Assembly: GCA_029907315.1 (NCBI GenBank)
Contig: JARYME010000019.1
Coordinates: 1 to 40,267 of the forward strand
Direction: 5' to 3'
Length of the DNA stretch: 40,267 nt
Source of the DNA: Armatimonadota bacterium
GTDB taxonomy: Bacteria; Armatimonadota; UBA5829
Shown: positions 17,055 to 19,008 of the stretch, one piece after another
Layout of the letters: every line of letters starts with the position of its first letter
How positions within the stretch are numbered: the stretch's first letter is position 1
The notes under the pieces: model-generated
The model's database searches: none
What the model saw: only the letters and a program-made list of their open reading frames with translations
Told to the model about the DNA's origin: nothing
Translations under genes and position numbers: made by a program

Positions 17055-17083
17055 TTGACAGCGCTGCTTCATGGCGGTAGTAT
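17055..17083 (+). promoter_or_regulatory. Promoter of the MarR-type regulator gene
   Basis: TTGACA (17055-17060), 17 bp, TAGTAT (17078-17083). The -35 is perfect and the -10 matches four of six. Transcription would start near 17090, inside the inverted repeat at 17085-17103, so a bound regulator would block it. Confidence 0.6.
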
Positions 17084-17084
17084 A

Positions 17085-17103
17085 TAGTTGACGCCAGCAA
17101 CTA
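17085..17103. promoter_or_regulatory. Putative MarR-type operator, copy A
   Basis: Perfect inverted repeat TAGTTG-ACGCCAG-CAACTA, immediately after the -10 box of the regulator promoter. The same 6-7-6 arrangement recurs at 17579-17597. Arms about one helical turn apart fit a dimeric winged-helix protein. The assignment to the adjacent regulator is inferred. Confidence 0.6.
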
Positions 17104-17134: not shown

Positions 17135-17566
17135 ATGGACAGAGAGCGAGCAAAGCAGCTTGTGGACCTCTTGGACGAGGTAATATGGAGGTTCGGAAGT
17201 CAAGGTTCAGACGGTTACTGCTGTGAAGATATCTCCTACGTTGAGTACCGGACGCTGAAGGTGCTGGCGAAGGTGGGTTTCCTCACGATGCAGCAGCTGG
17301 GGCAGCAGCTGGGATTTACCAAGAGCGGTGCAACCCGAGTTGTCGATCGACTTGAAGCGGCTGGCTATGTGCGCCGCGAACGCAGCGAGTACGACCACCG
17401 GGTATGCTGCGTTACCCTAACGGATGCCGGTCGCGAGCTTTTGGAGCGGGTTGTGGAGGAATATGCTCGCAAGGTCGAAATGTCGCTGGAAAGACTTGAT
17501 CCAGATATGCAGGACGTTTTGATGGCATCGCTGAGGAGTTTCGTACGCACATTTTGCGGCGGCTAG
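17135..17566 (+). CDS. MarR-family transcriptional regulator with vicinal cysteine pairs
   Basis: A 143-residue winged-helix regulator. Residues about 48-99 form the DNA-binding domain (TMQQLGQQLGFTKSGATRVV recognition region, wing DRLEAAGYVRRERS, then VTLTDAGRELL), flanked by dimerisation helices. Unusual for MarR proteins, it has adjacent cysteines C29-C30 before helix 2 and C91-C92 in the wing, plus C141 near the end. These could sense a soft metal, metalloid or thiol oxidant. It lies 66 bp upstream of the permease in the same direction and has an inverted-repeat site at its own promoter and another ahead of the permease, so autorepression together with control of the transporter is likely. 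The ligand is unknown. Confidence 0.8.
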   Translation: MDRERAKQLVDLLDEVIWRFGSQGSDGYCCEDISYVEYRTLKVLAKVGFLTMQQLGQQLGFTKSGATRVVDRLEAAGYVRRERSEYDHRVCCVTLTDAGRELLERVVEEYARKVEMSLERLDPDMQDVLMASLRSFVRTFCGG

Positions 17567-17582
17567 TTACCGCCAATATAGT
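17554..17582 (+). promoter_or_regulatory. Possible internal promoter for the permease gene
   Basis: TTGCGG (17554-17559), 17 bp, TATAGT (17577-17582), with a good -10 (five of six) and a weak -35. The -10 overlaps the left arm of the second inverted repeat. It would let the permease and thioredoxin genes be induced separately from the regulator. Confidence 0.35.
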
Positions 17583-17597
17583 TGCTGATGACAACTA
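17579..17597. promoter_or_regulatory. Putative MarR-type operator, copy B
   Basis: Perfect inverted repeat TAGTTG-CTGATGA-CAACTA, with the same arms and spacer length as copy A but a different spacer sequence. It lies 35 bp before the permease ATG and overlaps the possible -10 box at 17577-17582. Confidence 0.6.
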
Positions 17598-17632
17598 AGT
17601 GTGAAGCACAAGGACGCCTGGGAGGCACCCAT

Positions 17633-18736
17633 ATGAGTGTTACAAAGAACTGCTGTGGAGACTCTATCGAATCACCGAAGCAGCGGCTGCTGGTGAAGTG
17701 CTGCCCGCTATCTCTACAGATACTCTTGGGATTAGCGATTTGGATACTCGTATATGTCCGGCTGGATTCTTTCGCCAGGTGGGTCACTTACGATCTTCTA
17801 GAGTTCAGGAAAGGCGGGCATCTTGCCGGTGCGACAGAGTTCTTTGTGGCTGATGCCCCCAAGGTATTGATGCTGCTTGTGCTGATCACGTTCGTCGTCG
17901 GGATTACCCGCACCTTTCTTACACCGGAACGAATACGCACGATGCTCGCAGGTCGAAGGGGCACTTACGGGTATGTTCTGGCTGCCATACTGGGAGTGCC
18001 GACCCCCTTCTGCTCATGCTCGGCGATTCCACTCTTTCTCGGCTTCCTGCAGTCCGGCATTCCTCTTGGAATCACGATGTCTTTTCTCATATCCTGTCCT
18101 GTTGTAAATGAAGTCGCGCTCGCGATGCTCTACGGGATGTATGGCTGGAAGATAGCCGGGCTATATGCCACACTAGGGATGGCCAAGGCAGTGGTTTCTG
18201 GAATGCTGATGGCACGAATGCGGCCAGAGAGGTTTCTCGAACCTTGGGTTGCCCAACTGCAGTCGAGTGCAAGACAAGCCTCGACCGACGCCCCGAGCGT
18301 GGATGCCTCTTTGGTTATGACCTGGAGCGACCGCGTAGCTTCAGGTACCACGGCCGTCAGGGAGATACTCGCGGGCACCTGGCACTACCTGGTGGGAGGC
18401 ATTGCACTCGGAGCAATGATCTACGGCTATATCCCGGTAGCATTCGTCAGCCGGTACATGGGTAAAGATGCTTGGTGGAACGTGCCGGTGGCGGTTATCA
18501 TCGGCTTGCCGTTATATGCGAGTGCGGTGGGCGTTATCCCTATTATTCAAGCAGTTCTTGCCAAAGGTGCGGCCCTTGGGACGTCGCTTGCATTTATGAT
18601 GTCGGTGATAGGGATTTCCGTACCAGAACTTGTGATGCTGCGGAGAGTTATCAAGATGCCGCTGATCTGGTTGTTCGTCGGCTTCGTTGCTCTTGGGATT
18701 GTGATAGTGGGTTACATTTTCAACGCACTGATCTAG
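17633..18736 (+). CDS. UPF0718/ArsP-like permease
   Basis: A 367-residue polytopic membrane protein with about eight hydrophobic segments in two halves and a hydrophilic loop around residues 205-235. The family signature is PTPFCSCSAIPLFLGFL (C127-x-C129) and SCPVVNEVALAML (C155). ArsP members of this family export trivalent organoarsenicals; others have no known substrate. The N-terminal extension carries two vicinal cysteine pairs, C7-C8 and C23-C24, which could bind a thiophilic ion before transport. ATG at 17633 is fixed by GGAGG at 17621-17625; longer in-frame starts upstream overlap the operator. The thioredoxin-like gene follows after 26 bp, so cotranscription is expected. Confidence 0.8.
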   Translation: MSVTKNCCGDSIESPKQRLLVKCCPLSLQILLGLAIWILVYVRLDSFARWVTYDLLEFRKGGHLAGATEFFVADAPKVLMLLVLITFVVGITRTFLTPERIRTMLAGRRGTYGYVLAAILGVPTPFCSCSAIPLFLGFLQSGIPLGITMSFLISCPVVNEVALAMLYGMYGWKIAGLYATLGMAKAVVSGMLMARMRPERFLEPWVAQLQSSARQASTDAPSVDASLVMTWSDRVASGTTAVREILAGTWHYLVGGIALGAMIYGYIPVAFVSRYMGKDAWWNVPVAVIIGLPLYASAVGVIPIIQAVLAKGAALGTSLAFMMSVIGISVPELVMLRRVIKMPLIWLFVGFVALGIVIVGYIFNALI

Positions 18737-18762
18737 CGGATGCTTACAAAGGAGGGACTCAT

Positions 18763-19008
18763 ATGGTAATCAAGGTGTACGTCTCGTGCTGTGGCGCTGA
18801 TAAGGCAATCGCCGCTGTCGAGGAGGCTGTGAAGCAAGCCGGAGTGGAGGCTCGGGTCGAAACGGTAAAGGATCTGGCTGAGATGGCGAAGGCTGGTATA
18901 ATGTCGACTCCCGCTATAAAGATCGACGACCAGTTAGTGGCGAGCGGGAGGGTGCCTAAGGTAGCCGAGCTTGTCACTTGGATAATGAACGCTGCTAGTA
19001 GAGCATAG
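18763..19008 (+). CDS. Small thioredoxin-like protein with CC in place of CxxC
   Basis: An 81-residue protein of the short thioredoxin family (redox-active disulfide protein 2 type) that often sits beside UPF0718 permeases. The fold is indicated by the beta strand VIKVYVS, a helix, the strand ARVETVKD and the cis-proline segment MSTPAIKIDDQLVASGRVP. Family members usually have G-C-P-x-C; here the motif is S-C9-C10-G, so it keeps a vicinal pair but not the CxxC disulfide. It may bind or hand over a metalloid or substrate thiol, not act as a normal oxidoreductase. AAAGGAGGG precedes the ATG. It ends the cassette. Confidence 0.75.
   Translation: MVIKVYVSCCGADKAIAAVEEAVKQAGVEARVETVKDLAEMAKAGIMSTPAIKIDDQLVASGRVPKVAELVTWIMNAASRA

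Follow-up and report, generated by a model that had tools for sequence, protein, structure and literature searches.

A compact cassette of three same-strand genes, located in the 40,267-nucleotide stretch of Armatimonadota DNA analyzed here (contig JARYME010000019.1, hereafter the window), encodes a MarR-family regulator, an ArsP_1 permease and a small thioredoxin-fold protein and probably constitutes an autoregulated unit that exports a thiophilic metalloid; a trivalent arsenical, e.g. methylarsenite or arsenite, is the likeliest substrate. A function like that of ArsR would here be performed by a MarR protein, which presumably binds the ligand. At the sequence level, the two pairs of adjacent cysteines (CC pairs) of this regulator are the signature of a small, hitherto unnamed MarR subfamily.

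All three open reading frames are real genes. The permease starts at ATG 17633, the mechanically called frame beginning upstream at TTG 17582, and the ATG of the thioredoxin-like gene at 18763 is preceded by AAGGAGG. Profile matches bear out the identities proposed for the cassette in an earlier sequence-only reading, an ArsP_1 permease and an ArsE/MTH895-like thioredoxin, and the combination of such a permease with MarR rather than ArsR is indeed an unusual arrangement. The same reading had correctly located CC pairs at C29-C30 and C91-C92 of MarR, at C7-C8 and C23-C24 of the permease and at C9-C10 of the thioredoxin-like protein. When cysteines were shuffled within each protein, at least the observed number of adjacent pairs arose with P = 0.005 for MarR, 0.0045 for the permease and 0.025 for the thioredoxin-like protein; the CC set of the three proteins is therefore not explained by chance composition.

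Table 1. Genes, cysteine codons and putative regulatory elements of the cassette (window coordinates)
Feature	Position	Strand	Evidence or remark
Sigma-70-like promoter, TTGACA-17 nt-TAGTAT	17055..17083	+	Consensus match only; ~1.3 expected by chance in region
Candidate operator palindrome 1, TAGTTG-N7-CAACTA	17085..17103	.	Two bases past marR -10 box
MarR-family repressor (predicted), 143 aa, two CC pairs	17135..17566	+	PF12802 4e-14
MarR C29-C30 codons	17219..17224	+	Just N-terminal of helix alpha-2
MarR C91-C92 codons	17405..17410	+	Start of strand after DNA-binding wing
Candidate operator palindrome 2, TAGTTG-N7-CAACTA	17579..17597	.	Between marR and permease gene
ArsP_1 (PF03773) permease, 367 aa	17633..18736	+	Pfam match, alignment
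MTH895/ArsE-like thioredoxin-fold protein, 81 aa; CCG replacing CxxC	18763..19008	+	
Thioredoxin-like C9-C10 codons	18787..18792	+	Alignment to MTH895

The double-CC MarR subfamily and its palindrome

Profile search assigned the window regulator to the MarR family (PF12802, 4.2e-14; PF01047, 4.5e-11) and reported MarR models only, with no ArsR model (PF01022) among them. Its AlphaFold2 model (pLDDT 86.6) matches YusO (1s3j) with a Z-score of 13.9 over 117 residues. Further profile searches, using a subfamily model of three sequences or its two-sequence precursor, identified six more members at 119 bits or above: one in the family of the window genome (G008), one in the class of a Bacillota genome (G649) and four in the phylum of a Desulfobaccales genome (G1272, G1085, G1247 and G1190). 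Both pairs are kept in all seven members from these three bacterial groups, the first as CC[EA][DN] preceding helix alpha-2 and the second as R[IVF]CCV at the strand that follows the wing. Of about 58 further MarR homologues inspected, which score 63 bits or less, none carries both pairs; they have neither or the first pair only. It should be noted that the search models were made from CC-bearing sequences, which introduces some score bias; the four members on the Desulfobacterota side lie outside the models, and the gap between 119 and 63 bits is larger than four alignment columns should account for. The subfamily is rare: the window's phylum has 2 carriers among 291 genomes, the class of G649 has 1 among 340 and the Desulfobaccales phylum has 4 among 336.

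An inverted repeat with the consensus T[AG]GTTG-N7-CAAC[CT]A is found at all seven double-CC marR loci, usually in two copies. With up to two mismatches allowed, each of the seven has two: one ahead of marR and the other between marR and the permease gene, or, at L176, both in tandem. The exact repeat TAGTTG-N7-CAACTA has no further copy in the window beyond the two in Table 1, and among 56 control MarR loci one carries the palindrome (at most one mismatch). The same palindrome is present at the start of a related MarR gene that has neither the wing CC pair nor a permease neighbor (L187, 5400-5418); it therefore marks a wider MarR group and not the cysteines. Judging from their conservation and the gene order, the two copies would be operators through which MarR represses itself and controls the permease gene.

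An ArsP_1 permease gene directly adjoins the double-CC marR gene at 7/7 loci. In a phylogenetic tree these partner permeases split into two distant clades, the second consisting of proteins of about 300-366 residues with either one to three CC pairs or three consecutive cysteines in the central loop. The constant pairing is therefore that of regulator and permease family, and the permease itself has changed. Three of the loci (L176, L184 and L185) are arsenic islands with acr3 and arsD/arsA or arsC-like genes, and at two of these the ArsP_1 permeases beside the double-CC MarR genes have three central-loop CC pairs (L184, 7221-8321; L185, 5466-6533). No further arsenic genes are present at the window locus, L183 or L186. 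The G008 locus (L049) retains the order MarR, permease, thioredoxin, and the arsenic-related content of its neighborhood is confined to an ArsR and a CxxC thioredoxin. At the other five double-CC loci (L176 and L183-L186) no CC-thioredoxin adjoins the MarR/permease pair.

Two kinds of gene were also observed around these and related cassettes. A MarR gene of another type, with a single CC pair (ALCCGVTYAQCH), lies directly upstream of a second ArsP_1 permease gene (L040, 5985-7151), and cysteine-rich DGC-type proteins are encoded near several cassettes (L049, 4798-5181, PF08859 confirmed; L039, 5442-5909; L040, 5657-5950).

Permease, thioredoxin-like protein and PadR cassettes

The window permease matches PF03773 with 200 bits (gathering cut-off 32.3) and conserves the CSCS motif of the family in a transmembrane region (TPFCSCSAIP), including C127 and C129. 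It belongs to a clade of seven members, consisting of the window protein, its G008 ortholog and five Bacillota proteins, with support of 100/100. A further cysteine near the CSCS motif, C155 (FLISCPVVN; codon 18095-18097), is private to these seven permeases and missing from the other ArsP_1 sequences aligned; the C155-bearing permeases are precisely the seven that are followed by a CC-thioredoxin. Identity as SaoE (NF040736 equivalog, 125 of 325 bits) or as the SO_0444 Cu/Zn efflux transporter (102 of 300 bits) was rejected. No solved structure of a permease relative was found by sequence, and Foldseek gave no match at E <=0.001 using a model of moderate quality.

The N-terminal pairs C7-C8 and C23-C24 occur in the window permease only and are missing from the other clade members. 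They fall within or just past the low-confidence tail of the model (pLDDT below 50 at residues 1-14 and 16-20, around 66 at residues 21-30). The sequence-only reading had proposed CC pairs coordinated across all three proteins and named their conservation in orthologs as a test; the MarR and thioredoxin pairs passed this test, and the permease pairs failed it. The idea of a matched three-protein set is unsupported, because the N-terminal pairs are not kept even in the 81%-identical G008 ortholog from the same cassette, and their absence there and from close relatives rules them out as a conserved mechanistic feature. What stands is the conservation of the regulator and thioredoxin pairs, tied to an ArsP_1 setting, with relatives in arsenic islands.

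Plasmid carriage of the cassette was considered and rejected: tblastn of the permease against plasmids returned only relatives below 60% identity, several adjoining ArsR genes, and the window and L176 MarR proteins as queries gave generic MarR matches only. Viral contigs gave no match to the cassette. Elsewhere in the window genome (contig C20), tandem half-length ArsP_1-like reading frames of 155 and 178 residues are followed by a CxxCH cytochrome-like protein (L050, 2897-3888).

In the thioredoxin-like protein, C10 aligns with the first cysteine of the MTH895 CxxC motif and D13 with the second. The resulting motif CCG[GA], lacking a resolving cysteine, is found in 7/7 close relatives, and all seven permeases of the window clade are followed by such a CC-thioredoxin. 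These proteins score 137-151 bits, compared with at most 67 bits for CxxC homologues. Membership in TIGR00412 proper was rejected, the window protein scoring 60.8 and the L040 relative 50.8 against a cut-off of 62. Distant thioredoxin-like proteins combining CC and CxxC in a CCGNC motif are encoded at L080 and L083 (near 1500-1740), adjoining CcdA-like and TlpA-like genes; by their motif, they look like intermediates between the CxxC and CC forms.

The five Bacillota members of the permease clade belong to cassettes with the gene order PadR regulator, orthologous permease, CC-thioredoxin (L037, 3505-5369; L038, 3584-5352; L039, 3555-5344; L040, 3436-5267; L113, 3790-5562). Their permeases are 62-68% identical to that of the window and their CC-thioredoxins 50-57%, whereas PadR replaces MarR and the cassettes are embedded in arsenic islands, surrounded by acr3, arsR, arsD, arsA and arsC genes. 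An operator common to the PadR and MarR cassettes was sought and not found. The PadR regulators have a CC pair of their own within the motif GCC[AS]PTEG, making them candidate PadR-type arsenical sensors. PadR-like proteins with an N-terminal CPC motif were also observed at two other loci (L054, 4661-5233; L056, 1789-2250), encoded in opposite orientation to an ArsP_1 permease and a CxxC thioredoxin.

Proposed function and relation to known systems

Starting from features read directly from the sequence, namely cysteine conservation, gene order, the palindromes and the loss of CxxC, we infer a ligand, a binding geometry, a carrier role and an export step as follows. A MarR dimer would sit on the two 19-bp palindromes, the first covering the start region of the marR promoter and the second preceding the permease gene, thus repressing both its own promoter and the permease gene. 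Strict conservation and the ArsR precedents suggest that both vicinal thiol pairs bind a trivalent arsenical, C91-C92 lying at the base of the wing that contacts DNA and C29-C30 where the dimerization and DNA-binding domains meet. Binding may distort the wing and thereby release MarR from DNA. The thioredoxin-fold protein, having lost the resolving cysteine and gained a neighboring one, would act not as a disulfide reductase but as a dithiol carrier or trap handing the ligand to the permease, which, by analogy with its family, may export it via C127, C129 and the clade-specific C155.

The conserved cysteines could also serve other ends. If the operon were directed at soft metals (Cu(I), Hg(II), Zn, Cd) or at an organometal, the MarR cysteines would coordinate the metal, which the permease would then export. 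The permease does match the models for SO_0444 (Cu/Zn efflux) and SaoE (Sec-assisted organometal), albeit below cut-off, and the permease loop at L184 and L185, with as many as three CC pairs, would fit such ligands. However, the genes around relatives are acr3, arsD, arsA and arsC, and no mer, cop or czc genes were seen beside the loci, among those neighbors that were compared with the profile library, so we regard a soft-metal operon as unlikely. That the four MarR cysteines form a structural, non-sensory Zn(II) site in a regulator answering another small molecule seems very improbable: even though four conserved cysteines suffice for a Zn(Cys)4 site and both pairs are always retained together, generic MarR homologues fold without them. 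In addition, the strict tie to ArsP_1 and the presence of CC in the unrelated PadR at the same permease-thioredoxin pair point to the substrate and not to fold stability.

Thiol redox sensing is well known among MarR proteins and the operon encodes a thioredoxin-fold protein, both of which would agree with an OhrR/MgrA-like sensor of thiol redox state or electrophiles, in which the CC pairs become oxidized or alkylated and the thioredoxin serves to reduce the regulator or to process disulfides. Against this stand a thioredoxin without the resolving cysteine required for ordinary disulfide exchange, its absence beside the regulator at 5/7 double-CC loci and the ArsP_1 permease as the constant partner; we therefore consider a redox sensor distinctly improbable. 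Arsenical efflux remains our preferred reading, and the operon would then be of a known kind, with a fair chance that its regulator represents a new type of arsenical sensor.

More broadly, and with slightly less than even confidence, we hypothesize that the MarR subfamily with two invariant CC pairs senses trivalent (organo)arsenicals independently of ArsR and controls ArsP_1 exporters via a dedicated palindrome, and that in Bacillota a PadR protein with vicinal cysteines took over the permease-thioredoxin module. If so, arsenic sensing by CC pairs arose separately in three regulator families, and the MarR and PadR subfamilies would illustrate how easily vicinal-thiol metalloid sensing is reinvented, as well as supplying components for selective arsenical biosensors, together with a predicted operator. 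The hypothesis gives a testable annotation to regulators currently filed as generic MarR or PadR, and the CC-thioredoxin together with a permease bearing one extra clade-specific cysteine provides a test case for thiol-relay delivery to an ArsP-type exporter.

Redox, copper and zinc sensors of the MarR family (OhrR, MgrA, MarR C80, AdcR) share the MarR fold with the window regulator and have a palindromic operator, as is predicted for it. To our knowledge, no such sensor described so far has CC at both positions or an ArsP_1 partner, and the literature searched yielded none of either description. In that literature, whose coverage is incomplete (subscription journals lie outside it), no MarR or PadR arsenic sensor was found; the arsenic-responsive repressors described there belong to ArsR/SmtB, in which cysteine sites arose several times. 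ArsR/SmtB repressors hold trivalent arsenic with two or three cysteines, and the window regulator has candidate residues for such a site.

The SaoE and SO_0444 transporters share the PF03773 superfamily with the window permease, which scores far under their equivalog cut-offs, and no other genes of the SAO system were seen here. ArsEFG (Chen et al. 2019, cited in PMC9144182), as far as that citing account describes it, likewise has a TIGR00412-like thioredoxin directly behind an ArsP_1 permease, but the present protein has CC in place of CxxC, has lost the second cysteine, scores 60.8 against the cut-off of 62 and is accompanied by another regulator. Vicinal cysteines contribute to arsenic sites in AfArsR (C95-C96-C102) and CgArsR (C15-C16-C55) (PMC11868830), and in SpArsR of Shewanella putrefaciens, which answers to MAs(III) and controls arsP, the vicinal pair stands alone (PMC11868830; PMC12124457). 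Vicinal-cysteine ArsR is the nearest precedent, a functional and not a homologous one: ArsR-controlled arsP systems (SpArsR/arsP, Campylobacter arsP), which serve methylarsenite efflux, also place a vicinal-cysteine repressor beside an ArsP-type permease, whereas the window cassette uses a MarR-family regulator with four cysteines at other positions, a different candidate operator, another permease clade and, in addition, a CC-thioredoxin.
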